DNA of 44,512 nucleotides from a virus: the IMG/VR virus record IMGVR_UViG_3300036766_000358, positions 1 to 44,512 of that record; one strand, written 5' to 3'. Below the pieces are notes generated by a model. It searched no databases. It worked only from the letters and a program-made list of their open reading frames with translations, and was not told the origin of the DNA. Positions within the stretch are counted from its first letter, which is position 1; every line of letters begins with the position of its first letter. Shown one piece after another: positions 15,986-44,315 of this stretch. The position numbers were made by a program, and so were the translations under genes.

Positions 15986-16675
15986 TTACCCCAACTGATA
16001 ATGTGGAATCCCGGTGGATTGGGACGGTGAATAACTGCTCTGGGGCTGATTCATGTACTGCTGCAAATTATACAGGTAGGGCAATTGTGCCAATGTCTGT
16101 CCTGTAGCCCCGTAAAGGCCCCCCGTGACCGCCCCCTGCGAGACCCCAAGGTTGGCTATATTCCCGGAGATATTGCCCGCCGTACCCATCAAATTGGCTG
16201 CCGTACCCGTGGCATTGGTGGCTTCAGTCCCCGCCCCAGCCCCGAATCCCGCCAATCGGAACTTATCTCCGATCTGCCGGTCCCGTTCCGTTGCCAGTAA
16301 TCCGGCAAGGAATTGAGCCTTGGCGACTTGGGCTGGACCGGAGTTCGGATCTCCCGTAGTCGCGGCATTGGAAGAAAGCTGTTGTAGGCCCGTCGAGGAG
16401 GCCAACCCGTAGCCCGCGCTCAGGGTCGGATTCTGGACATCCTGGGTCAAGCCCGGTAGCGTTTCCGCTCCTGTCTTGGCATATTTAAGGCTGATATCCC
16501 GGAACGGGGCCCCTTCACCATACACCTGCCTCTGGAAGTCCAGGAGGTTGTTTTGGAATGCCTCCTGACCTCGGGCGGCAGATTTTATCGCCTTGGATTG
16601 CTCTCTGGCCCCGAGGTAATTCAGTCCACCACTCACAGCCATGGCCCCGACAGTAGCCGTCACCGGATCAAACAT
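15986..16675 (-). CDS. Putative ejection protein, gp7-like
   Basis: A 229-residue protein beginning MFDPVTATVGAMAVSGGLNY, with a helical basic stretch (GAREQSKAIKSAARGQEAFQ) and a Gly/Ala/Thr-rich C-terminal half (AGFGAGAGTEATNATGTAAN). The early segment resembles small internal virion proteins of short-tailed phages. It overlaps the GNAT gene start by 8 nt and precedes the other two ejection candidates. Confidence 0.6.
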   Translation of the reverse strand: MFDPVTATVGAMAVSGGLNYLGAREQSKAIKSAARGQEAFQNNLLDFQRQVYGEGAPFRDISLKYAKTGAETLPGLTQDVQNPTLSAGYGLASSTGLQQLSSNAATTGDPNSGPAQVAKAQFLAGLLATERDRQIGDKFRLAGFGAGAGTEATNATGTAANLMGTAGNISGNIANLGVSQGAVTGGLYGATGQTLAQLPYLYNLQQYMNQPQSSYSPSQSTGIPHYQLG

Positions 16676-17102
16676 TGGCGTATCTCCTCATCATGGTCCT
16701 GGTAGGTTCATACCTCTTCTTTTCCCATTTCTGGATGTCATTCTGAAAACAACAGAATTCGAATACGGTAGCATCGAGTTTCCTTGCATCCCTAATACAG
16801 AATCGGTACAGCTTGCTTGCCGTGTCACCACCCCTGTAGACAGGTCGCAAATATAGGTGCTGTCCAACAGCATGTATTTTGCCAGTCGAAGGTTCGGGAA
16901 ATATAAAATAATCCATGAATCCAATGATATGATTTTCTCTGGCAATATGAATGTGATATATTCCTGAATTCATTAAATTTTCTGACATTTTTAACCACCA
17001 ATCCCGCCTGGGTTCGTATGTCGGGGCAAGTTCCAGTACCATAGAAAGCCATAGTCCGGATATCTCTTCAAGGTCTCCCGCTGTTGCCAGAGCTATAGTC
17101 AT
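16668..17102 (-). CDS. GNAT-family N-acetyltransferase
   Basis: A 144-residue GNAT. The acetyl-CoA-binding motif A is around residues 85-100 (LYLRPVYRGGDTASKLYRFC), preceded by the typical N-terminal ATAGDLEEISGLWLSM. It lies among tail and ejection genes and overlaps both neighbours. The substrate is unknown. It could acetylate a virion protein or, if linked to the sugar cassette, an amino sugar; the second idea is inference only. Confidence 0.8.
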   Translation of the reverse strand: MTIALATAGDLEEISGLWLSMVLELAPTYEPRRDWWLKMSENLMNSGIYHIHIARENHIIGFMDYFIFPEPSTGKIHAVGQHLYLRPVYRGGDTASKLYRFCIRDARKLDATVFEFCCFQNDIQKWEKKRYEPTRTMMRRYANV

Positions 17103-27973: not shown

Positions 27974-28429
27974 CTATTTCCCGAATGCCCCATACCCGGC
28001 CACACCCAGGGCCACAAAGTCCACCATGACACGTGCCTCATCCCCTCCGGAGGCCGTGTTGTAGCCGTAGCCCACCGTAATGATCTTGAGAAATGACCGA
28101 ACCCCGATCCCCGCATTGATGGGGAAGTTGTTCACCTCTTTCTGGGAGAATCCCGCATACAGCACAGGATTTACCAGGCAGATTCCCTTCACCTTCACAC
28201 ATAGACCGCTGTCCAATATCTCCGAGGCTGAAAAACCCTCATCGACATGATTTATGCGGACCCCCATCGAGGGATAGGCGTTGGGTTTCATAATGTCTTC
28301 TGTGTTCAATGTGAGATCAAGCCACGGGTCCTGCGGTTCCTGGGCATGCGCCTTCCCTGTTCCGTAAATCAATAATCCCACCAGTACCGCCATACCTACG
28401 ATAATCAGACCACAGTCACGAAGTTTCAT
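27974..28429 (-). CDS. Secreted protein, possible outer-membrane beta-barrel
   Basis: A 151-residue protein with a Sec signal peptide (GLIIVGMAVLVGLLIYGTGK, cleavage after AHA). The mature part is Gly-rich with alternating hydrophobic strands (LVNPVLYAGFSQKEVNNFPI, IITVGYGYNTASGGDEARVM), suggesting a small porin-like barrel. Its ATG overlaps the stop of the methyltransferase/DUF115 gene. It may alter the host surface, for example in superinfection exclusion. Confidence 0.6.
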   Translation of the reverse strand: MKLRDCGLIIVGMAVLVGLLIYGTGKAHAQEPQDPWLDLTLNTEDIMKPNAYPSMGVRINHVDEGFSASEILDSGLCVKVKGICLVNPVLYAGFSQKEVNNFPINAGIGVRSFLKIITVGYGYNTASGGDEARVMVDFVALGVAGYGAFGK

Positions 28430-30087
28430 GTTATTGCCTCCCTATCTGAAATATTATCCTTGGATGCCCAAGAGACAAGACTGTCTCCGTATATTCTTAC
28501 GGACTTCACGAGTCCGAGACCTTTCCCGGTACTGTAAAGATTGAAGAAGTGTTGCATGAAAGCCAGGTAGCAAGGGGTTGTCTTGAATGTCTTGCCGTTG
28601 ATCTCAACCTCAAGAACATCCTTTATTTCTCCGACCCCGGTGATCCCGGCGGCATAATCCTTTGCCGTGATGTGGCAATCGAATCCGAACATATGGATAT
28701 CCCGTGCCCCCAGCATCATGGATAAAGAGAAGGCCCCAAGGGAGACAGATCCCACGGCATTTATCATGGACATGGATTCTATGCCGAACTCCCGGCAGTA
28801 TTCTCCCATGGGAATACCGCGCTGTGGAACGAGGAAATAAAACAGTTTTCGGCCTTGATCCTTTAATAATTGAAATACTTCCGGTTTGCATTGACACATC
28901 AGGAGATGAGTCACGTCGGGATGGGTTCCATGGAAGGATTCAATAACGTCATCACTGGCGTCCATGGCGATCACGTAATCCGGGATAATCTCTCGGTCCA
29001 GGCACCACCGATACATTCGTTCTATGGCGTAGACGGTGGCCCCGCTGTCCCGGAGTTCCTTGATCCTTTCTTCATATCCATCTACAGAGGGCCCCCCGCA
29101 GACGATCACGGCGGTACTGTCCGGGTGAGTATTTATCAGTTCCGTGACCATTGGAATTCCGGATGACAAGATCCACCGGATATTTTCCCGGCGTTCCTTG
29201 AGCGGGAATTTGCAGGATACCCGTATCGGCGGAAGCAATTGCTTATCACCGAAAAGGTGTTGATGAATCGTCCGCGCCTCCTGTGGGTTCTTGTTGGATA
29301 TCTCCATTGGATCGGCCTTACCCCACAGGGATTCGATATTCTCATCCAGGTGAAGATCCTCGAATCCACAGCACCGCATGACGTACCAGAGCGTATTCCC
29401 GGTGAATTGGTAGGTGTGGGCATTCTGAAATAGGCTGTTCTTATCCCAGGTGTAAAACCCGGGAACCGAAACGTACAGTACCCCATCATCCGATAGGAGG
29501 CCTCTAATCCTGGAAAGGTCCCGTTTCAGATCCAGGAAGTGTTCAAGGACATGATGCAGGATGATGAGGTCCGCTTTCTTTCCGTAGGATTCGAGGATAT
29601 CAATCCCACCATGAAAAAGATTACGTCCCTTTTCTTGCCCGGCCCTGACTGCATTTTCGTCATAATCAACGCCGACCGTCTCACCCTCGAACTCAGCCAA
29701 CAGGTTCCCATTGCCACACCCGACATCGAAGATAACTTTCGGATCCGGCAATTCAAATTCATCCATCATCCGCTTGACGGAATCTCGGGTCCGGAGGTAG
29801 GGTATGTCCTCGCCATCACGTGACAGCATATCCCCTACATCGCTGTAGATATTCCGGTAATCGTTCTTGTAAAACCGCGCAAATGATTCTTCGGTCATCC
29901 TGGGATTCGCGTACAGGATGCCGCATTCCACGCAGAGGCAGAGGACATATTGGATGCCATAGCGATCTGTATTCGTGATGGGAACGGAATTGTCAGTACC
30001 ACAGAAGCAATTGACCTTCTCTGTGGCGTAAATACCCTGTTCCACTTTCCGATTGAACAAGTTAGCATAGAAAGCGGAGGGGGTCAT
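28426..30087 (-). CDS. Methyltransferase fused to DUF115 (Maf-like) protein
   Basis: A 553-residue two-domain protein; the ATG at 30087 has GGAGG eight nt upstream. The N-terminal part has a Cys pair (CFCG at about 27-30), LCLCVEC (49-55) and a class I AdoMet-binding motif, FDVGCGNGN (120-128), with LEHFLDLK following. From about residue 325 the C-terminal part is DUF115-like: VIVCGGPSVD (328-337) and PDYVIAMDASD (369-379). DUF115 proteins include Maf glycosyltransferases that add nonulosonic acids to flagellin. It lies in the capsid block; a link to the sugar cassette is inferred. The methylation target is unknown. Confidence 0.75.
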   Translation of the reverse strand: MTPSAFYANLFNRKVEQGIYATEKVNCFCGTDNSVPITNTDRYGIQYVLCLCVECGILYANPRMTEESFARFYKNDYRNIYSDVGDMLSRDGEDIPYLRTRDSVKRMMDEFELPDPKVIFDVGCGNGNLLAEFEGETVGVDYDENAVRAGQEKGRNLFHGGIDILESYGKKADLIILHHVLEHFLDLKRDLSRIRGLLSDDGVLYVSVPGFYTWDKNSLFQNAHTYQFTGNTLWYVMRCCGFEDLHLDENIESLWGKADPMEISNKNPQEARTIHQHLFGDKQLLPPIRVSCKFPLKERRENIRWILSSGIPMVTELINTHPDSTAVIVCGGPSVDGYEERIKELRDSGATVYAIERMYRWCLDREIIPDYVIAMDASDDVIESFHGTHPDVTHLLMCQCKPEVFQLLKDQGRKLFYFLVPQRGIPMGEYCREFGIESMSMINAVGSVSLGAFSLSMMLGARDIHMFGFDCHITAKDYAAGITGVGEIKDVLEVEINGKTFKTTPCYLAFMQHFFNLYSTGKGLGLVKSVRIYGDSLVSWASKDNISDREAIT

Positions 30088-30124: not shown

Positions 30125-30874
30125 TTAGACAGGGAGTTTGTCATAGACGATGTAGATCCATCCTGCCGCTCCCACAAGCGTCGTTGAGGTTGTGTTGTTG
30201 TAAACAATCGCCGTTACTCCTGAATAAATGGGTGACCGCCGCATGAACTCCGATGTGGCTGCCGTGGCCATGAGGAGGGCTCCCCGGCTGAGTATCGCCG
30301 TAACAGAGACAAGCAGCTCTTCCGCGAAAGCATAGCCTGTTGCGGACACGGGTCCGGCTATGATGTAGCCCGAGGGGGTCCCGGAAACTCCGATGTTCAG
30401 AAGCGCCGTTGTTCCCAGCGTCGAAGTCCGAAGGAAGCAATCATGTACCTGAGAATTCGCCGGGATGGAATACCCGTTAGCCCAGACCGACCCGGTGGCC
30501 GTCAGGCTACCCGCCGCTGTCAGGCAAAAAGGAACCACCATGACATTTCTAATCTTTTCCGTATCGATCTCGATCCGGTGCTGCGATTTCGTCAAGCCCG
30601 AGATGAACACGGATTGCCCGGATGCCGTAACCACACACAGATCTACTGTCGTCACGCTGGAATCCACCCAGAACTGAATGACCCCATTCGTCATTGTGTT
30701 AGCGAGGGTCGCGGCGGTGTAGACAATCGCGGTCCCGGCGCTGGAACTGTAAATCGTCGCCGGGCTCCCGGTTCCAGCCGTGAGTACGCTGAAAAGCCCG
30801 GTATCATCATCAATCGGACTTTGCGTCCGCTTATTCACCAACTGAACATAAAATTCTACGAAGTTACTGGCCAT
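30125..30874 (-). CDS. Virion structural protein (fibre or decoration)
   Basis: A 249-residue beta-rich protein (VEFYVQLVNKRTQSPIDDDT, AGTGSPATIYSSSAGTAIVY, then RSPIYSGVTAIVYNNTTSTT). It follows the coat and small beta protein genes in order. The N-terminus resembles capsid or head-fibre modules. It ends about 38 nt before the methyltransferase/DUF115 start. Confidence 0.55.
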   Translation of the reverse strand: MASNFVEFYVQLVNKRTQSPIDDDTGLFSVLTAGTGSPATIYSSSAGTAIVYTAATLANTMTNGVIQFWVDSSVTTVDLCVVTASGQSVFISGLTKSQHRIEIDTEKIRNVMVVPFCLTAAGSLTATGSVWANGYSIPANSQVHDCFLRTSTLGTTALLNIGVSGTPSGYIIAGPVSATGYAFAEELLVSVTAILSRGALLMATAATSEFMRRSPIYSGVTAIVYNNTTSTTLVGAAGWIYIVYDKLPV

Positions 30875-30886
30875 GTCTGATCTCCT

Positions 30887-31147
30887 TTATACTCTTGCAA
30901 TACCAAACGCAATCCAAACGAATAAATCATTGTTTGCGGTGGTCACAGTGAACGTATTCCCTGATACGGTATCGCAGTAGGCGCCTGTCGCACTGGTCGC
31001 ACTGCTTACGAGAGCCGCTTTCACAACCGCTAAGTTCGGCACCGTAACAACCGTGGAAGTGCCGGACCCGCCGGCAACACCCCATGCGATATCCGTAAAG
31101 CTCCCAATAGATTGAACCAAGGCTCCTGCTTTTGCTGTTAATGCCAT
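30887..31147 (-). CDS. Small structural beta protein
   Basis: An 86-residue protein with alternating hydrophobic strands (GSFTDIAWGVAGGSGTSTVV, then VSGNTFTVTTANNDLFVWIA). It is directly after the major capsid gene and before the larger beta protein, as decoration proteins usually are. Not assigned to a family. Confidence 0.55.
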   Translation of the reverse strand: MALTAKAGALVQSIGSFTDIAWGVAGGSGTSTVVTVPNLAVVKAALVSSATSATGAYCDTVSGNTFTVTTANNDLFVWIAFGIARV

Positions 31148-31173: not shown

Positions 31174-32229
31174 TTAATCAGCCACAGCCGCACTGAAGCA
31201 ATGGACGACCCCACTATCCTCCACGGTGGCCCGATCAAAATAGAGTCTTTCTACGCCCCGGATCTCATGAGCCTCAAAGGTCATATCGTGACCGATGTCG
31301 CTTTCCTCTTCGCCGAACTTGGAGCGCTGCCCCCATACCACCGCGGCGGCCTGGGCTCCCAGGAACAGATTGTGTGCAACCTGAATCGTGGAACTTACCA
31401 GGTTGATCCGTTCGTATTCATAGATCAGGGTTCCGTTCCAGGACCCCTTGAACGATGAACCCGTGAAAAGAGGGGAATCACTGTTTGAACCAGGAGGGAT
31501 GTTGAGCTGGGCATTTCTCCATGCGGCATCGTTGTTCACCATATCCCGGATGGAATAGGTATGCCCGCAGAAGGTAAACCATTCCTCGTAATTCTTCCCG
31601 TTCTTGACTCGCATAGGCCGTATTTTCGCCGTCGCATTGACCGGAATCAAGGCTTTCCGCTTGCAGATATCGATCATGTTGGTCGTGAGTTGATCCGCCG
31701 CATTATCCACCGCGGTCAAGGCTACTGAATGGGTCGCATTCCAATTTGAATCCAGCGCTCCATATAGATACCGGCCTCTGACCCGTCCATGCGCCGTATC
31801 TGAATTATTGGAAAGTTGGGTCGTAATCTCCTCATCCAGGTCCAGTTGTGACTTGGTTTGCAGTGCCCGTTTCGCCTTTTCCAGGAGCCGGAATCCCACA
31901 CGCTTCTGCGACATCGGGATATCCTCTACTTTGATGACGTGCCGTACGTTGTCGATCGTCAATCGCTGATAGTAGAAATCGACACGCCCCTCATTGCCCT
32001 TGGCCTTGGCATTCCCCACGACCTTTCCACCCTGCATCTGACCCATGATGCCCACGGTGATCGCATCTCCTGGCTCCTTGGTCAGATCTTCATCGAGATA
32101 GATAATGGAATCCTCGGATGTTCCCATCAGATTCTTCCACCACATCATCCCGATATATTCCTCGAAGATGTCATTATTCCATTGCTCTTCACTTAAACCG
32201 TGTGTGGTAAGTATTTCTACGTAAGCCAT
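31174..32229 (-). CDS. Major capsid protein (N4-gp56/DUF4043-type)
   Basis: A 351-residue protein. The N-terminus (LSEEQWNNDIFEEYIGMMWW, DEDLTKEPGDAITVGIMG and VRHVIKVEDIPMSQKRVGFR) fits the N4-gp56/DUF4043 capsid family. It is preceded by the scaffold gene (with an HNH gene between) and a portal gene further upstream, the standard head order. An alternative is a P22-type coat, since other head genes are P22-like. Confidence 0.75.
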   Translation of the reverse strand: MAYVEILTTHGLSEEQWNNDIFEEYIGMMWWKNLMGTSEDSIIYLDEDLTKEPGDAITVGIMGQMQGGKVVGNAKAKGNEGRVDFYYQRLTIDNVRHVIKVEDIPMSQKRVGFRLLEKAKRALQTKSQLDLDEEITTQLSNNSDTAHGRVRGRYLYGALDSNWNATHSVALTAVDNAADQLTTNMIDICKRKALIPVNATAKIRPMRVKNGKNYEEWFTFCGHTYSIRDMVNNDAAWRNAQLNIPPGSNSDSPLFTGSSFKGSWNGTLIYEYERINLVSSTIQVAHNLFLGAQAAAVVWGQRSKFGEEESDIGHDMTFEAHEIRGVERLYFDRATVEDSGVVHCFSAAVAD

Positions 32230-32266: not shown

Positions 32267-33073
32267 TCAATATTTTATAACCCGAGTTTTTTTCCTACTA
32301 TTACACGATTGACACAATGGCTGAATATTACTAATCCAGTTTGTGCCGCCTCTTGTTAATGGGACAATATGGTCTTTTGTTAATTTGATATCCGGCTCAG
32401 GCCTACCGCAACACGGACAGCGGTGATGGTACTGCCGTTTCAACAATTCCCATTCATCCCATGTGAATAACCCTTCAGCGTTCGCCTTGCGAGACCGCTT
32501 GAGATGGGCGTGTTTATTCTGCATGAATTTGTGATGTTCGCTGGACTTCATCCTTCTCTTGGCATCACAATCCCTTGAGCAGTAAATTTTCTCCATTATT
32601 GCCCTTGCATTCCTACCCGTCATTTTTTCACCACAGAATGCACATTGCTTTTCAGGAATTGTGGCACTACGTCCAGAATCCGAACATTTAACGGAACAAT
32701 ACTTAGAATTATTTGAGGCCCCCACAAACACGATCCCACATACAGGACATGGCCTCGATTGAATCGTCTTCATCGCTACATGCTTGCATTCCACGGAACA
32801 ATATTTTGCATTTTCTTTCGCTGGAATAATCATGAATTGTTTTCCACATTGCTCACAATTCTTTTCCATCTTGGGCTTGATGCAGCTTTTTGAGGAGCAT
32901 TCTTTTGAGCAATATTTTGATTTACTTCCCGTCCTATCAGAGTAAGGATTACCAGGAACCTTGGCCCGGATAGCAAGAAATAAAATTCCACATTGTTGAC
33001 ATATCCTCTGGACCGGACCACCCTTCCAGGATATATTCTGTTCCCCTGTCTTGAATCCATTAAAGGGTTTCAT
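32267..33073 (-). CDS. HNH endonuclease with four tandem zinc ribbons
   Basis: A 268-residue protein started at MKPFNGFKTGEQN (ATG 33073). Four copies of a Cys-x2-Cys ... Tyr-Cys-Ser-x2-Cys ribbon (for example CQQC with KYCSKEC, CEQC with KYCSVEC, CPVC with KYCSVKC, CAFC with YCSRDC) are followed by a basic linker and an HNH domain (CPCCGRPEPDIKLTKDHIVP, then NWISNIQPLCQSCNSRK). It separates scaffold and capsid genes, so it is probably a homing endonuclease insertion with unusually many zinc modules. Confidence 0.85.
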   Translation of the reverse strand: MKPFNGFKTGEQNISWKGGPVQRICQQCGILFLAIRAKVPGNPYSDRTGSKSKYCSKECSSKSCIKPKMEKNCEQCGKQFMIIPAKENAKYCSVECKHVAMKTIQSRPCPVCGIVFVGASNNSKYCSVKCSDSGRSATIPEKQCAFCGEKMTGRNARAIMEKIYCSRDCDAKRRMKSSEHHKFMQNKHAHLKRSRKANAEGLFTWDEWELLKRQYHHRCPCCGRPEPDIKLTKDHIVPLTRGGTNWISNIQPLCQSCNSRKKTRVIKY

Positions 33074-33074
33074 A

Positions 33075-34001
33075 TCAGTGAATTGCCTCCATGATGCCGT
33101 CCAGGGTCTTGAATCCCGTCTTTTTCTTCTCTTCCTGGTGATCCGAGCCCTTAACATCCGTGAGGCCCTTGGGTTCCTTGTTTTTCTTATCCATCCGATC
33201 CATGAAGGTTTTGGTCACTTCTTCCGTTATTTTGGGACGAAGCTCCTTTTCGACCTCGGCGCGGATGGACTCCACGATCTTTTCCGGGTCCGGTCCATAC
33301 TTGGTATGAAAATCGTGTTCCCGCATGATTTTCAATGCTTCCAGTACCGGGGCATGGGAATTCAGGACCCGAAACTGTTTTTCCCGATCCTGACCGTAGA
33401 CCTCATTGAATTTTACCAATGTGGAAGTAACGGTCTCCTCCCCATACTGTGCCGTTGCAGCAGCTTCCGAGGCGGCGACCTTCCCTCGGACCTCCGCCTC
33501 TCGCTCCCTGAGTTCCGCAGAAGATTCCGTGGAGACGTTATCCTTTTCCGGATCGTAAGTTCCATCGATCTTCTTTCCGAGAACATCCATCTGTTTCTTG
33601 AGGTCGATGTTGGCCTGGTTGAGCTTATTGGCCCAGGCCGCGGTATCATTCTGCCGCTTCTCAAGAGAGATGGCCTTTTTCTTCCAGGGGTTGTCCTCGG
33701 ATTCAAAATCGGAGACAGGCTTGACCTCGGCCTTGACCTCTTCGACTACTTTTACTTTTTCTTTTTCCCCTTTTTCTTTTTCGGATACATCTTTTTTCTC
33801 CTCTTTGACGGCTTCCTTTTTCTCGGAAACCTCTTTTTTCTCTTCCGGTTTCAGGTCCAGGGTGACCTTTTTCTCCTCTTTCTTTTCCGGTTCCGTCTCA
33901 AGAGATGCGACCTTTTCTTTTGGGGCCGCTTCTTTCTTCGGAGAACCGCCTAAGAATCCACCCAATCCGAGACCATTATCCTGTTTTTCTTTGACCGCCA
34001 T
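33075..34001 (-). CDS. Capsid scaffold protein
   Basis: A 308-residue protein. Residues about 20-110 are nearly all Lys/Glu/Val/Ser (KEEKKVTLDLKPEEKKE), followed by coiled-coil helices (DTAAWANKLNQANIDLKKQM, REREAEVRGKVAASEAAATA) and a charged helical C-terminus (EVEKELRPKITEEVTKTFMD). Position between portal and coat, and this composition, are typical of scaffolds that direct procapsid assembly. Strong ribosome binding site (AAGGAGGAG). Confidence 0.75.
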   Translation of the reverse strand: MAVKEKQDNGLGLGGFLGGSPKKEAAPKEKVASLETEPEKKEEKKVTLDLKPEEKKEVSEKKEAVKEEKKDVSEKEKGEKEKVKVVEEVKAEVKPVSDFESEDNPWKKKAISLEKRQNDTAAWANKLNQANIDLKKQMDVLGKKIDGTYDPEKDNVSTESSAELREREAEVRGKVAASEAAATAQYGEETVTSTLVKFNEVYGQDREKQFRVLNSHAPVLEALKIMREHDFHTKYGPDPEKIVESIRAEVEKELRPKITEEVTKTFMDRMDKKNKEPKGLTDVKGSDHQEEKKKTGFKTLDGIMEAIH

Positions 34002-37304: not shown

Positions 37305-37472
37305 GACCCCGACCCTCATTCTCACGATACCGCACAGTTCTTGTGGTCTATGTTTCTGTTGGCAGGAGGGGCAATCCAGGAGACCCCGGTTCCTCATCTC
37401 CGATTCCAAGGTCAGGAGTAGAGCCTTGGCGTGCCGGTACATGTTTTGGAGTATTTCGTTTTCAATTTCCAA
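37293..37472 (-). CDS. 59-residue zinc-binding protein at the cassette end
   Basis: I start it at TTG 37472 (GGGGGA upstream, 11-nt overlap with the radical SAM gene); a GTG at 37493 is possible. A helical N-terminus (EIENEILQNMYRHAKALLLT) precedes CPSC and a later Cys (CQQKHRPQELC), a likely zinc knuckle. Last gene of the sugar cassette. Unknown function. Confidence 0.5.
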   Translation of the reverse strand: MEIENEILQNMYRHAKALLLTLESEMRNRGLLDCPSCQQKHRPQELCGIVRMRVGVLTK

Positions 37473-38277
37473 CGGGAATCCCCCAAAACTCACAGTCCTT
37501 GCACAATGGAACCTCGGATCTTCGGCCTTCCCGGTGCGCCTTCAGCCATTCCATGCGCTTTTGGCTGTTCCAGAGATCGGCCAGCGTGGAGGTATTGAGA
37601 TTTCCTAATAGACCCTCCCGGTCCGGGCTGAGGCGATTACAGATGTACAGATTTCCTTGCCAATCGATAGACGGGTGGTTGAGAAAATCAAGGCAGATCC
37701 CTATTTCCGGGATTGCAGGAGCACTTTTCCGGTACCCCCGGCTCCCGCCGGGAACATGGAGCGCCCTGCCAATGATCCGGATGGCTCCGGAATCCTTCAG
37801 GTTTCTATATTGGAACATTCTTTCCGGTTCCAGATCCCCGACGATTTTGACAAGGACCAGGGGAGACCTGTCTCCCTTTATTTTCAGAAATGAAGTGAGT
37901 TGACGCCACTGGTTTTCGGCCTCCGTATCGCCACGGAACACGGATAGCGTCAGGGAATCTATCCTTCCGATCATCATCGTCCGATCCATGAGCCGCATAC
38001 CGCTGGTCACGATGTTCGTGATAAAATCACTACAAAACAAAGATATGGCCTCCTCGAAATGACCATATTGTAGGGGTTCCCCATCCCGATGAAACTGAAT
38101 CGTGATCCCGCCCGGCAATTCCGCGTGAATATTGCGAAGCAGGCCGATATCCATATCCCCATATTCCAGGGATTTATTTATTTTTGGGTCCTGATGGCCG
38201 CAGAAGTGACAGGATTTCTCGCATCGGCTGGTCAATTCAATGTTAACCCGAGACAGGCCGTTAAGATTTGCTTTCAT
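37462..38277 (-). CDS. Radical SAM protein with SPASM-type C-terminus
   Basis: A 271-residue protein. The CxxxCxxC cluster at Cys19, Cys23 and Cys26 (CEKSCHFC) binds the catalytic 4Fe-4S cluster. Further cysteines at the C-terminus (CLDF, CNRLS, LCKDCEFW with GNLNTSTLADLWNS) form a SPASM/twitch-like auxiliary cluster site. The start at ATG 38277 overlaps the aminotransferase stop by 17 nt. SPASM enzymes usually modify peptides or small molecules; with an aminotransferase and sugar synthases beside it, a role in sugar or peptide modification is plausible. Confidence 0.85.
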   Translation of the reverse strand: MKANLNGLSRVNIELTSRCEKSCHFCGHQDPKINKSLEYGDMDIGLLRNIHAELPGGITIQFHRDGEPLQYGHFEEAISLFCSDFITNIVTSGMRLMDRTMMIGRIDSLTLSVFRGDTEAENQWRQLTSFLKIKGDRSPLVLVKIVGDLEPERMFQYRNLKDSGAIRIIGRALHVPGGSRGYRKSAPAIPEIGICLDFLNHPSIDWQGNLYICNRLSPDREGLLGNLNTSTLADLWNSQKRMEWLKAHREGRRSEVPLCKDCEFWGIPVGN

Positions 38278-39178
38278 CCCACCCCAGAACCTGATCCCGC
38301 CAGTCACAGTCAACCGCTTCCTCGAACTTATGGGACAGATAATCCGTTACCCGGCCCGTGTGGCCCTTACCGATCACCGATCCGTTTATTTTCGTTATGG
38401 GGACCACACAGTTCGGCGTATTCGTAAAAAAAGCCTCATCGCAATTCATGACGTCATAGAGTTCCAGGTTCCGTTCGAATACCTCTATTTTCAATTTCCG
38501 GGCCAGGTCCATGACATATTGCCGGGTAATTCCACGAAGGATGTTTCGCGGTTCCGGGGTAAAAAGTTCCCGATTCTTGACCATAAAGAAATTGGAACCG
38601 CTTCCCTCGGCAATGAATCCGTCCGGATCTAAGAGCAGTGCCCACGCGGTCGGGTCGGCCCGACGGACCTCCATATCGGCCATTTTGTAATGCATTCGGG
38701 ACCGATTCTTGACCTTGGGTTCCAGGAGGGATGCCGGGATGGTCCGTTGCGACGGGATGACGGCATGTACCCCGTGATCGTAGGTCCGGGACGTGCCCGC
38801 GGTGATCCATCGCAGCGGAAAGGTCGTCATCATCACCCAGGGGTCCATGGAAAGCCCCATACGGCCGTAAATCGGCAGGGTTCCTCGGGACACGTTTATC
38901 AGGGACCGGATCTCATCGGTATCCGAAAACTCCTTCCGGTTCGCCATGAGCAAATCCTTGTGAGCCAGGATCAGTTCTTCCCTGGTGTACGGGATCGAAA
39001 TCCCCAGGTATTTCATGGAAGCGTACAGGCGATCCATGTGTTCCTGGAATTTGAATGGGATGCGATTAAAGGTCCGGGTCATCTCGAATACCATTGACCC
39101 GAACATCAGGGCTTCGTCATAAACGGAGACAACCGCCTCGGTCTCAGGTAGGAATATTCCGTTTTTCCAGACTCGCAA
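38261..39178 (-). CDS. Class IV PLP aminotransferase
   Basis: A 305-residue fold-type IV aminotransferase (branched-chain / D-amino-acid type). It starts RVWKNGIFLPETEAVVSVYD, has KVKNRSRMHYKMADMEVRRA around the PLP lysine region and IAEGSGSNFFMVKN, the conserved E...GSN.F motif. I use the TTG at 39178; another TTG at 39187 is possible, both after GGAGG. It overlaps the cytidylyltransferase end by 35 nt. It would supply an amino group to a keto-sugar or amino-acid intermediate; the substrate is unknown. Confidence 0.8.
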   Translation of the reverse strand: MRVWKNGIFLPETEAVVSVYDEALMFGSMVFEMTRTFNRIPFKFQEHMDRLYASMKYLGISIPYTREELILAHKDLLMANRKEFSDTDEIRSLINVSRGTLPIYGRMGLSMDPWVMMTTFPLRWITAGTSRTYDHGVHAVIPSQRTIPASLLEPKVKNRSRMHYKMADMEVRRADPTAWALLLDPDGFIAEGSGSNFFMVKNRELFTPEPRNILRGITRQYVMDLARKLKIEVFERNLELYDVMNCDEAFFTNTPNCVVPITKINGSVIGKGHTGRVTDYLSHKFEEAVDCDWRDQVLGWDESKS

Positions 39179-39806
39179 GGAACTCAATGACCTCCGTAAT
39201 GTGGAATTGATTATGGCCGAAGTGATCGAAAACACTTTTGACCGATTCGTAGTCACTTTGCGTGTTTACGTCCAAACGCAGACGAGAGCCCCTGAATTCT
39301 TCAGGGCACAATGGTTCAATGACTTGTCCTGCCCGATGCCAGGTTTTATGGGGATGTTCCCGGAGATACGGGTCCTTGATGACATTGTCCATGACTTCGA
39401 GTTGGGTTATATCGTAAATTTCGCAACCTATTCCATCCGGATATTCCGAAAAGCGATAATCCCCGGCATTGGAAACGAGGCACGGTGTTCCTCCAATGGA
39501 AAATCGAAGACTCAATGCCCGGTCAATTTCCTCGGCTTCAACACAAGGGTTGTCCCCAGGAACACGGACTATGAAATCCGCCCTCATCTCTTTTGCCACG
39601 TCGTAATGCCTGCCGATCAGATCATTCTCGTCCCGGTCTGGAGCATCCTCTGGCCAGATAATACGAATCTCGTCCACCCGGTTTGACCGCCCGACCCGTT
39701 CCAGAATATTCTCCAGCATCGTTCTCCCGGCCATCGGTAAAAGAACCTTTCCCGGCAGCCGGGTTGAATTCATCCGGGCTTGAATTAGGCAAACTACGCG
39801 GGACAC
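39144..39806 (-). CDS. SpsF-like cytidylyltransferase
   Basis: A 220-residue protein of the SpsF / CMP-nonulosonate synthetase-related family. ARMNSTRLPGK (residues 10-20) is the nucleotide-binding signature. DFIVRVPGDNPCVE and YPDGIGCEIYD are further conserved segments. Such enzymes activate acidic sugars as CMP derivatives. GTG start at 39806, GGAGAG nine nt upstream. It follows an HNH gene that appears inserted between it and the synthase gene. Confidence 0.85.
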   Translation of the reverse strand: MSRVVCLIQARMNSTRLPGKVLLPMAGRTMLENILERVGRSNRVDEIRIIWPEDAPDRDENDLIGRHYDVAKEMRADFIVRVPGDNPCVEAEEIDRALSLRFSIGGTPCLVSNAGDYRFSEYPDGIGCEIYDITQLEVMDNVIKDPYLREHPHKTWHRAGQVIEPLCPEEFRGSRLRLDVNTQSDYESVKSVFDHFGHNQFHITEVIEFLASLEKRNIPT

Positions 39807-40408
39807 TGCCTATTGCTCTCCTTCCAGTATTTTCCAAGAACTATTCTTCGTAATGTGCTATAGGATATTCCGTATTTTTTAGCCAAGTTAGATGGTTCTT
39901 TGTTTCCAATAGCCTCACTTCTCAATAGATCGACACTCCTCCATGATAATTTCGCTGTATTTGTTTTTTCTATATCCCACTTTTCAGGGTTTTTTACTCT
40001 TGGATGATTATTTCCACTAACATGAAGACTTGGATTTAATCTAAATGGATGGTTATCTCCTCTTTTCAGTTTTTCCGGATGAAGTCTTGCTCCACTTTTA
40101 TTACCAGTCGCCATTCTTCCTTTTCTAACGGCATCTTGCATATTATCTTTATGGGTTCCCAAGAAAAGATGGTCTGGGTTTACACAATTCCTTACGTCAC
40201 ATTTATGGCAAACAAGCATTCCTTCAGGAATAACTACATTAGCATACTGGGAGGCTAACCTATGAACAAGAACACGTATAACCTTGCCGTTTTGACTATG
40301 ACTCCAAGACCCATATCCCCCTCTATTTATAGGTCCATTCCAAAACCAGCAAGTTTCTGTTTTTGTAACTCTACTGAAAAATTTATCCATCATTACTTTT
40401 GCGTTCAT
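39794..40408 (-). CDS. HNH endonuclease with HTH tail
   Basis: A 204-residue protein: an N-terminal HNH_3-type domain (TETCWFWNGPINRGGYGSWS, then LVHRLASQYANVVIPEGMLV, CHKCDVRNCVNPDHLFLG) and a C-terminal helix-turn-helix (EPSNLAKKYGISYSTLRRIV) for DNA binding. AT-rich relative to the surrounding sugar genes and separating the synthase from the cytidylyltransferase. The ATG has GAGGAA seven nt upstream. Confidence 0.85.
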   Translation of the reverse strand: MNAKVMMDKFFSRVTKTETCWFWNGPINRGGYGSWSHSQNGKVIRVLVHRLASQYANVVIPEGMLVCHKCDVRNCVNPDHLFLGTHKDNMQDAVRKGRMATGNKSGARLHPEKLKRGDNHPFRLNPSLHVSGNNHPRVKNPEKWDIEKTNTAKLSWRSVDLLRSEAIGNKEPSNLAKKYGISYSTLRRIVLGKYWKESNRQCPA

Positions 40409-40409
40409 T

Positions 40410-40823
40410 TCAAGGTTCCTCTGTATATCTGGAATTCAATATTATAGAAGCCACTCTCTGCCCAGTTATTCCGTGCATTTCGCCAATGGTCTTCATCGAA
40501 AATCCAAGGGATCGCATTTTTAAAATATCAGCGTTTCTATTTAGGAATCTTTCTTTCATCGGGTTATTTTTACGGATTTTATTTTTATTCTTTAAGATAA
40601 AGAATCCTTCAGATCCCTTTATGTGTATATTGTGCGATTTTGCGAGATCGTTAATTTCATACAAAGAAACGGAACCCATTCCATCTATGTTTTCCAAATC
40701 GCTGATATCCACCGCTTTAAGATCTTCGACCGTGAAAATTTGGCCCCGATTGAGATTGTTGGCACTTCTCACGGAAATGCCATCGAATAATTGAAGAAGA
40801 ACTGTTTTATCATTCACGGGCAT
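40410..40823 (-). CDS. HhH and HTH domain protein
   Basis: A 137-residue protein. An N-terminal helix-hairpin-helix-like segment (DLKAVDISDLENIDGMGSVS) and a C-terminal helix-turn-helix (FSMKTIGEMHGITGQRVASI) suggest DNA binding. AT-rich like the following HNH gene, so it may travel with it. Good ribosome binding site (GGAGGG); the start overlaps the synthase stop by one nt. No nuclease motif is seen. Confidence 0.6.
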   Translation of the reverse strand: MPVNDKTVLLQLFDGISVRSANNLNRGQIFTVEDLKAVDISDLENIDGMGSVSLYEINDLAKSHNIHIKGSEGFFILKNKNKIRKNNPMKERFLNRNADILKMRSLGFSMKTIGEMHGITGQRVASIILNSRYTEEP

Positions 40824-41683
40824 TATTTCACCCTCCTCAATTTCTCCAAGATCGGTAATTCTTCCGGCAAGACCCGTATTTCGCCGCTTCCCAGTGCCAA
40901 TTCAAAGTCCCGGATCTCACAAACCAACTTTTTCAAGCCCGTAGGCTCGATGGAGGCGGCCTGATCGCTGCCCCAAGATGCCCTTGATAGAGTAATATGC
41001 ACTTCGAGTATAGAGGCCCCCAAAACCACCGCGCAGAGACTGGCATAGATACCGGGATGGTGATTAGAGTATCCGATGGGGAAGGATGGATAAAAACGTT
41101 GGAATGTCTCAATGCGTCGCAGGTTAAGGTTCCACGTGGAACATGGGTAGGTGGAGGTCGTCACGAGTAGGGCCGTATCGGTAGTTCCAATGACTCCCAA
41201 GGCTTCCAATACCTGTTTCTCCGTACTCATCCCCGTGGACATAATTACTGGTTTTCCGGTCGCCTCTATCCGCTCAAGCAATTCCAGGTCCGTCAGACAC
41301 GCGGAGGCCACCTTGTAGGCCGGTACATCAAACTTTTCCAGGAAATCCACGGACTCTATGTCCCAGGCGGAGGCAAACCACGGGATTCCACATGCCCGGC
41401 AATAGGTATCGATGCGGGAATAATCCTCGATCCCGAATTCCAGGCCGCGTTTCAGATCGCCGTTGGTTGTTCCAAACGGGGACTCTCGGGGCCGGGCCAG
41501 CTCTTCCCTGGTGTACACCACATCCACGGTCCGCTTCTGGAACTTCACGGCATCACAACCCGCATCGATCGCCACGTCAATCAACTTCTTGGCTGTTTCC
41601 ACGGACCCGTTCGCATTAAGACCAATTTCTGCTGTAATAAAACAAGGATATGTATTCCCAATCTCCTTATTTCCTATTTTCAT
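40823..41683 (-). CDS. NeuB/SpsE-family nonulosonate synthase, SAF domain absent
   Basis: A 286-residue TIM-barrel synthase. AEIGLNANGSVETAKKLID (18-36), VKFQKR (46-51), WFASAWD (102-108), STGMSTEK (149-156), IGYSNHHPG with His208 and His209, EVHITLSR with His229 and SDQAASIEP match the NeuB/SpsE/PseI family, which condenses PEP with an amino sugar. The usual C-terminal antifreeze-like (SAF) domain is missing; the protein stops after the barrel. Products might be sialic, legionaminic or pseudaminic acid type; which is not decidable. Start overlaps the HNH stop (ATGA). Confidence 0.85.
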   Translation of the reverse strand: MKIGNKEIGNTYPCFITAEIGLNANGSVETAKKLIDVAIDAGCDAVKFQKRTVDVVYTREELARPRESPFGTTNGDLKRGLEFGIEDYSRIDTYCRACGIPWFASAWDIESVDFLEKFDVPAYKVASACLTDLELLERIEATGKPVIMSTGMSTEKQVLEALGVIGTTDTALLVTTSTYPCSTWNLNLRRIETFQRFYPSFPIGYSNHHPGIYASLCAVVLGASILEVHITLSRASWGSDQAASIEPTGLKKLVCEIRDFELALGSGEIRVLPEELPILEKLRRVK

Positions 41684-42126
41684 GTAAATCTTCCCGTTTT
41701 ATTTCTCATTCTTCTTTTCACGGTTTCTTTAGAATGTAAACTTATGTGTTCCCTGTGATTCAATAAAACTAAATTTTCAATTCTGTCGTCATCCCTTATT
41801 CCATTGATATGATGGACTACCTCATTTTTAGTTAAATATCTTCCTATTTTTTGTTCCATTAAAAACCTATTTTGACGGATATATCCTTTTCCCATTTTAT
41901 TGGCAAATGGATGTTCCGGATTATAAATTAACCAATAACCATTGCATTTTGTTTTTCCTTCCTTCCATCCTATCTTATTTCCTACCGTGAATTTTGTTGC
42001 TGGATTATGCCCGACAATAAACCTTGGTATTACGGAATGTTTCTCGAAATGCCATTTTTTTAAATAAATTATACCATTACATCCACAATCGCACTTTCTG
42101 CAAGCTATTATATCTCCACTCTTCAT
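41680..42126 (-). CDS. HNH homing endonuclease
   Basis: A 148-residue protein. The ATG at 42126 has GGAGG directly upstream, preferred to an in-frame TTG at 42138. An N-terminal Cys cluster (CRKCDCGC) and the HNH core TKNEVVHHINGIRDDDRIEN match the plus-strand HNH protein at 20269-20823, so the two are paralogues. AT-rich insertion between the large terminase and the synthase. Confidence 0.85.
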   Translation of the reverse strand: MKSGDIIACRKCDCGCNGIIYLKKWHFEKHSVIPRFIVGHNPATKFTVGNKIGWKEGKTKCNGYWLIYNPEHPFANKMGKGYIRQNRFLMEQKIGRYLTKNEVVHHINGIRDDDRIENLVLLNHREHISLHSKETVKRRMRNKTGRFT

Positions 42127-42192
42127 GTTATCCTCCAATTTTTAGGAGTATAACAAATTCTTAATTAGGTGTCAATATCTGTTATTTATGCC

Positions 42193-43668: not shown

Positions 43669-43836
43669 TTATCTCCTCCCCCTCTTCCTACCCGTAGGAC
43701 GCCATATTGAATGCTCCACCGCATCCAATATCCGCTCCAAACTCTTCGCCTTCCGCTTCGTCGTCCTCCGCGCCTTTACCCCTCCCGGCGTCCTCACCCG
43801 ATACCCACCCTTCACCCGCGTTATCTTCACCGGCAC
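43669..43836 (-). CDS. 55-residue basic protein between HNH and terL
   Basis: GTG at 43836, within the end of the HNH gene. The product is very basic (VKITRVKGGYRVRTPGGVKA, then TTKRKAKSLERILDAVEHSI) and ends two nt before terL starts. The pattern is one I recognise from small phage genes beside terminases. Probably nucleic-acid binding. Confidence 0.65.
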   Translation of the reverse strand: MPVKITRVKGGYRVRTPGGVKARRTTKRKAKSLERILDAVEHSIWRPTGRKRGRR

Positions 43837-44315
43837 TCATCACCTCGCCACAACGGAATCACCCCAGAGTCCGCACCACCCAATCTGTGCCACCGCATAT
43901 GATCCCCTTGATTCGCAAACACCATCAAATTAACAGGATCATTATTTTTGTTATTTCCATCTTCATGGTGCACCACCATGCCAGTCTCCAGCTTAAAAAT
44001 TTCCCCAACCACTCGCCTTGCCAAAACCTGATGCCAGCGGCCCTGATGATAATTCGGATTCGCTATCGCCTTGTAATAACATCCTTCCGTGCAAAATATC
44101 CGTCTCTTATTCCGTACCGTAGACCGGACCTTCTTAAACTCCAAACCACACTGAAAACATTTTACCAAAATCCAAGCATTCGCTTTCGAAGTATCAATGC
44201 CCCGCTTGTTTAGATAATATTTTATCGCCTGCCGGGTCACTCCCTCCATATTACCCAACATCTGCAACGAATATAACCCGCTCTTCCATAAATCTATAAT
44301 TCGCTCCCTTGACAT
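43827..44315 (-). CDS. HNH endonuclease with HTH, terminase region
   Basis: A 162-residue protein. The N-terminal helix-turn-helix (YSLQMLGNMEGVTRQAIKYY) is followed by a Cys module (VKCFQCGLEF with FCTEGCYYK) and an HNH core (TGMVVHHEDGNNKNNDPVNL). It separates the small and large terminase genes. The ATG lies 6 nt after a -10-like box, and no ribosome binding site is visible. HNH genes next to terminases can be homing elements or packaging nucleases. Confidence 0.8.
   Translation of the reverse strand: MSRERIIDLWKSGLYSLQMLGNMEGVTRQAIKYYLNKRGIDTSKANAWILVKCFQCGLEFKKVRSTVRNKRRIFCTEGCYYKAIANPNYHQGRWHQVLARRVVGEIFKLETGMVVHHEDGNNKNNDPVNLMVFANQGDHMRWHRLGGADSGVIPLWRGDECR

Follow-up and report, generated by a model that had tools for sequence, protein, structure and literature searches.

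Why would a phage carry, among its capsid genes, a gene that joins a methyltransferase to a Maf-like domain? The window, an IMG/VR virus record in full length (44,512 bases), comes from an uncultured tailed phage of the P22-like type, as judged from its P22_portal (E 4e-103) and Phage_capsid_3 profiles. We lean towards the reading that a nonulosonate, made and CMP-activated by the phage, is transferred to a virion protein by the Maf-like transferase, with the methyltransferase half modifying the sugar or glycan. The domain identities, the intact motifs, the co-occurrence with NeuB and the position in the capsid block form the sequence and fold basis of this reading; from these we infer the donor sugar, the acceptor, the methyl acceptor and the timing of expression. 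Few studies deal with the glycosylation of phage virions, and we found no report of nonulosonates on them in the open-access literature searched, which excludes most subscription journals.

A two-domain gene in the capsid block

The initial annotation described the ORF at 28426-30087 on the minus strand as a methyltransferase fused to a DUF115 domain, with the motifs VIVCGGPSVD and PDYVIAMDASD. Both motifs are present. Since the two domains score above their Pfam cut-offs and are conserved in about 20 distinct phage proteins, the fusion is not a chance one. The start ATG lies at 30087, with GGAGG upstream at an 8-nt spacing; a longer frame is present and is not needed. The gene and its neighbours are:

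28426..30087, minus strand: Zn-site methyltransferase and Maf_flag10/DUF115 fusion, 553 aa (Pfam, predicted structure, Foldseek, family alignment)
29236..30087, minus strand: N-terminal half, CxC/CxxC site (C27, C29, C52, C55) and SAM methyltransferase (residues 101-225) (Pfam, Foldseek, alignment)
28426..29235, minus strand: C-terminal half, Maf_flag10 (PF01973) with GGPS and GxD motifs (Pfam, profile, Foldseek)
30125..30874, minus strand: c250, 249 aa, Ser/Thr-rich (24%), capsid block, candidate acceptor (synteny, distance correlation)
30887..31147, minus strand: c87, small capsid-block protein, 86 aa (synteny)
31174..32229, minus strand: major capsid protein, Phage_capsid_3 / phrog_334 (profile)

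The position in the capsid block holds as annotated: downstream of the Phage_capsid_3 gene come the 86-aa protein, the 249-aa protein and then the fusion, in the same order in relatives. There the fusion gene usually overlaps c250 or sits a few bases away, the exception being L113, with an HNH gene between them. HNH endonuclease genes also occur in and around the capsid block and sugar cassette of the window (39794-40408, 41680-42138, 43827-44315 and 32267-33157, the last judged by sequence only). A GNAT acetyltransferase, possibly a further modification enzyme, is encoded within the late structural block (16668-17102).

Relatives of the fusion were found with an alignment, as scanning viral contigs with the single sequence gave no match. 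The full-length protein had no match in the annotated phage collection, and neither did a profile scan of bacterial genomes made with one short pattern. MAGs labelled Nitrospira, Moranbacteria and Magnetococcales contain relatives of the capsid protein; the binning, and likewise the host label, is uncertain.

The N-terminal half looks like an intact methyltransferase

Methyltransf_23 matches residues 101-225 (E 2e-14, 53.9 bits versus a cut-off of 27), and SAM motif I reads DVGCGNG at residues 121-127. All 21 full-length fusion proteins in the family alignment keep, without variation, the cysteine pairs pointed out in the initial annotation, C27/C29 and C52/C55. Pfam's Methyltransf_13 zinc-binding domain, the model of the sugar C-methyltransferase type, gave no match at E 0.01. 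AlphaFold2, run with 25 family sequences, modelled the protein with a mean pLDDT of 90.7 at full length and 91.3 for the C-terminal half alone. In Foldseek, the best PDB matches of the whole model were the sugar C-methyltransferases MtmC, TcaB9 and KijD1. The TM-scores were low (0.3-0.4), so domain packing differs from that of the matched structures. The methyltransferase domain looks intact, and its substrate is predicted from fold likeness.

A variant of our reading is that this half methylates the virion protein, for example on Lys, instead of the sugar. Lys methylation accompanies nonulosonate glycosylation in the flagellins of Aeromonas and Shewanella (PMC9290775), but the closest folds here are those of sugar C-methyltransferases, a resemblance rather than a substrate test, and we consider the variant rather unlikely.

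The C-terminal half is closest to Maf

PF01973 (MptE-like; Maf_flag10/DUF115) matches residues 312-474 (E 6e-17, 62.4 bits versus a cut-off of 34.6). Within its GxGPS-type and LG...GxD motifs, P333, S334, G460, G468 and D470 are invariant in 25 sequences. A profile search with this half gave Maf (5mu5), one of the flagellin glycosyltransferases that decorate bacterial flagella with sialic-acid-like sugars, at E 3.2e-12 versus 2.4e-4 for archaeal HPPK/MptE. Foldseek ranked 5mu5 (E 5.9e-8) ahead of HPPK/MptE (3.2e-6) and of SteA and the human CMP-sialyltransferase ST8SiaIII (6.7e-4), and the whole model aligned to 5mu5 across 615 columns. By both profile and predicted fold, the half is nearer to Maf than to MptE, and no other family came out ahead. 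TAL-effector matches in the profile search were set aside as repeat artefacts, no stretch of which passes alone. The PseD model NF050051 scored 30 bits versus a cut-off of 670. The protein ends about 80 residues past the PF01973 match, in a stretch modelled as mixed strand and helix with no helical bundle.

Since the known acceptor of Maf is flagellin (PMC11339370), and phage-encoded changes to bacterial surface nonulosonates are known (PMC12053666), the enzyme might decorate LPS, capsule or flagellin on the surface of the infected host, for instance to block superinfection, and not the virion. However, the gene is part of the structural block, next to c250, and keeps that place while the cassette moves (see below), and no Maf-like C-terminal helical domain follows the Maf_flag10 core. 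We therefore regard decoration of the host surface as quite improbable.

We give a smaller chance still to a reading that has nothing to do with sugar transfer, with the C-terminal half as a pterin pyrophosphokinase of the MptE type or some other nucleotide-binding enzyme. PF01973 is named MptE-like, and archaeal HPPK is the second-best fold, but Maf leads in both searches, no pterin gene was recognised among the subset of window ORFs scanned, and the gene is tightly associated with NeuB and a CTP transferase.

The window encodes a sugar cassette

Between 37.4 and 41.7 kb, the window holds a four-gene cassette:

40823..41683, minus strand: NeuB-type synthase, 286 aa (PF03102 E 9e-70, 235 bits)
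39144..39806, minus strand: SpsF/KdsB-type CTP-dependent cytidylyltransferase, 220 aa (PF02348 E 1.7e-16)
38261..39256, minus strand: class IV (PLP) aminotransferase (PF01063 E 2e-47)
37462..38313, minus strand: radical SAM/SPASM protein with conserved N- and C-terminal cysteines (PF13186, alignment)

The synthase scored 220 bits with NeuB_NnaB (cut-off 400); the NeuB/PseI models have 327-329 positions, and their tail is unmatched. The cytidylyltransferase, at 61 bits, exceeds the PF02348 cut-off of 22.6 and lies below equivalog cut-offs. The pathway had been called potentially complete, which is too strong: none of the cassette genes was recognised as making the aldehyde that NeuB uses, and this precursor would therefore have to come from the host. 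The ORF at 40410-40823, flanked by NeuB and an HNH gene, encodes a protein of 137 aa whose helix-hairpin-helix domain is like that of the RNA polymerase alpha C terminus; a role in transcription or DNA binding is possible.

The transferase and NeuB occur together in relatives

To sample relatives independently of the sugar genes, we used the major capsid protein, obtaining 42 contigs, none rated at least 90% complete. NeuB was present on 21, PF01973 on 32 and CTP_transf_3 on 22. All 21 NeuB-positive contigs carried PF01973/DUF115, and relatives with DUF115 that consistently lack the synthase were not seen in this sample, in agreement with the co-conservation that the initial annotation had proposed to examine. 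The 11 contigs with DUF115 and no NeuB are fragments that break off at, or close to, the places where the cassette usually lies; three of them start inside it. Three near-complete contigs (G018, G028, G037) have neither gene.

Among contigs that include the capsid slot as well as the stretch upstream of TerL, a coverage judged by hand from contig ranges and maps, 12 had both genes and 3 had neither (Fisher 12/0/0/3, P 0.002). Over all 42 contigs, P was 0.0005; as the counts include many fragments and near-copies and are not independent, both P values are only a guide. Since the negatives fall on separate branches of the capsid-protein tree, absence is not a property of a single clade.

The correlation between NeuB and DUF115 distances (partial r 0.65) was discarded as evidence: it is gone when the genes are not adjacent and reflects linkage. 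For c250, the partial correlation was 0.62 with capsid distance removed and 0.60 in the distant-cassette set, values that linkage may explain, c250 being the direct neighbour; for TerL it was 0.55 (n=12). In Ser/Thr content, c250 does not exceed its counterparts in relatives that lack DUF115, which gives no support to c250 as the acceptor.

The cassette moves while the fusion stays in place

The cassette occupies three sites. In the window, L002-L004 and L021-L023, it lies between TerL and portal in the order NeuB-SpsF-aminotransferase-radical SAM; in others (e.g., L056, L084 and L140), it precedes TerL in the order NeuB-aminotransferase-radical SAM-SpsF. At the third site, directly after the fusion gene, L064 has all four genes, and L010, L012, L138 and others have NeuB-SpsF only. 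Thus, the cassette relocates among relatives yet stays paired with the fusion, which keeps its place in the capsid block.

Cassette type, two-gene or four-gene, tracks the DUF115 tree with one change (94/96). Residue 478 (28654-28656) is Tyr with the four-gene cassette and His with the two-gene cassette; from this sequence pattern near the GxD motif, it is a possible donor-specificity switch. Residue 472 (28672-28674) is listed beside it.

Transfer looks essential and methylation optional

DUF115 occurs alone, without the methyltransferase, in L140/L141 and L164 (= L144). Since the L140 and L164 genomes hold the full cassette, transfer looks like the essential core of the module and methylation like an extra, optional but recurrent. 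In L126 (5971-8581), the fusion is followed by a second, stand-alone DUF115 gene and then NeuB and SpsF, a pair of transferases that may share one sugar or serve different acceptors. In L148-L150, DUF115 is joined to a different methyltransferase. The slot after c250 in the NeuB-less L165 (16458-17932) and L106 (3306-3998) holds a gene (phrog_1574) assigned as GT2-like, weakly, at a score below the Pfam cut-off; in L165, a Methyltransf_24 gene follows it.

Of the interpretation first offered for the locus, a Maf-like transfer step tied to the cassette is supported. The methylation step is not supported in the form given: the domain looks intact but is absent from some genomes that have everything else.

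The pair recurs in unrelated phages

NeuB and DUF115 lie side by side not only in several relatives but also in unrelated phages. Among 50 unrelated NeuB-bearing viral contigs, PF01973 matched in 20 (6 above the curated cut-off), and in 11 it lay at most 2 kb from NeuB. By comparison, a random-word contig sample had DUF115 in 3 of 29, apparently all one phage type (P 0.005), a rough comparison, as the random contigs are shorter on average. In L069 and L040, the PF01973 gene immediately precedes NeuB, and in L069 NeuB is directly followed by a separate methyltransferase gene. Both are large phages whose long sugar islands (L040, 6757-13590; L069, 6766-15525) encode aminotransferases, an epimerase, a DUF115-like gene, NeuB, a CMP-synthetase and a methyltransferase. 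Three fragments of another phage (L198, L205 and L207) have DUF115 and no NeuB on the fragment; in L207 (6537-7745), it sits amid structural genes, so DUF115 is not in every case dependent on a synthase gene of the phage.

That a cargo gene and a sugar cassette independent of it were simply co-inherited in one phage lineage is the least probable explanation, for although shared ancestry accounts for part of the co-occurrence and the sample is mostly fragments, presence and absence change on several branches, the cassette moves but stays paired, and the pair recurs outside the lineage.

A proposed model for sugar-coated virions

A model that fits our preferred reading, nonulosonate transfer to a virion protein, is as follows. 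The fusion would be made from the late structural block as a virion-modifying enzyme. With the host supplying the precursor aldehyde, PEP, CTP and SAM, the NeuB-type synthase and SpsF-type cytidylyltransferase would make a CMP-activated 3-deoxy-2-ulosonic acid, which in the four-gene type the aminotransferase and radical SAM enzyme may alter further. The Maf_flag10 domain, as a CMP-nonulosonate glycosyltransferase, would attach the sugar to Ser/Thr of a virion protein, the likeliest candidates being its neighbours in the block, the 249-aa c250 and the capsid protein; either before or after this step, the N-terminal Cys-site SAM methyltransferase would methylate the sugar or the glycan. Phages of this kind probably sugar-coat their own particles.

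A Maf-type transferase is known in kind; its capsid-block setting is unexpected. Whether these genes amount to a widespread, unrecognised phage system, in which a capsid-block Maf-type transferase and a mobile NeuB/SpsF cassette matching the transferase subtype, with an apparently live methyltransferase where that of flagellar Maf is degenerate, put nonulosonates on virion proteins, is a more tentative proposal, to which we give somewhat less than an even chance. If our preferred reading is right, most of the sugar activation as well as the transfer step is provided by the phages themselves, which would make a compact soluble system for placing nonulosonates on protein shells and might give the particle a shield against recognition.

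Comparison with known systems

The sugar C-methyltransferases MtmC, TcaB9 and KijD1 consist of a Cys-site N-terminal part, a SAM methyltransferase and a second Rossmann-like domain. The phage fusion has the same three parts, but its second Rossmann domain is PF01973, and the overall TM-score is 0.36. With CMP-sialyltransferases, its C-terminal half shares a weaker but significant fold match (ST8SiaIII, GT29); Maf itself is described as Cst-II-like (PMC11339370), Cst-II being a GT42 enzyme. Unlike these enzymes, the phage half would have another acceptor and shows, at 11% identity, no sequence-level membership.

In mycobacteriophages, proteins of the capsid and the tail tube are reported to carry glycans (Freeman et al. 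2023, cited in PMC12619734). The glycans proposed here would likewise sit on virion proteins; in the present case, a nonulosonate synthase, a cytidylyltransferase and a Maf-type transferase would be involved.

The closest likeness is to Maf of Magnetospirillum magneticum (PDB 5mu5). In Maf, the N-terminal Rossmann domain is described as degenerate, its methyltransferase-like motifs being weak, and precedes a Cst-II-like Maf_flag10 domain (PMC11339370; PMC9290775). The phage fusion also has a Rossmann/methyltransferase-like part before PF01973 and is accompanied by nonulosonate partner genes. It differs in that its N-terminal domain carries a four-cysteine site and reaches the score of a full SAM methyltransferase, the C-terminal helical domain is missing, and its neighbours are capsid genes, not flagellin. 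Thus, from the profile and fold results and the published Maf architecture, the domain order is that of Maf, with the methyltransferase scoring as intact and the helical C-terminal domain absent. If our reading is correct, this likeness hints at a possible origin of the methyltransferase-like N-terminal domain in flagellar Maf from a functional methyltransferase.
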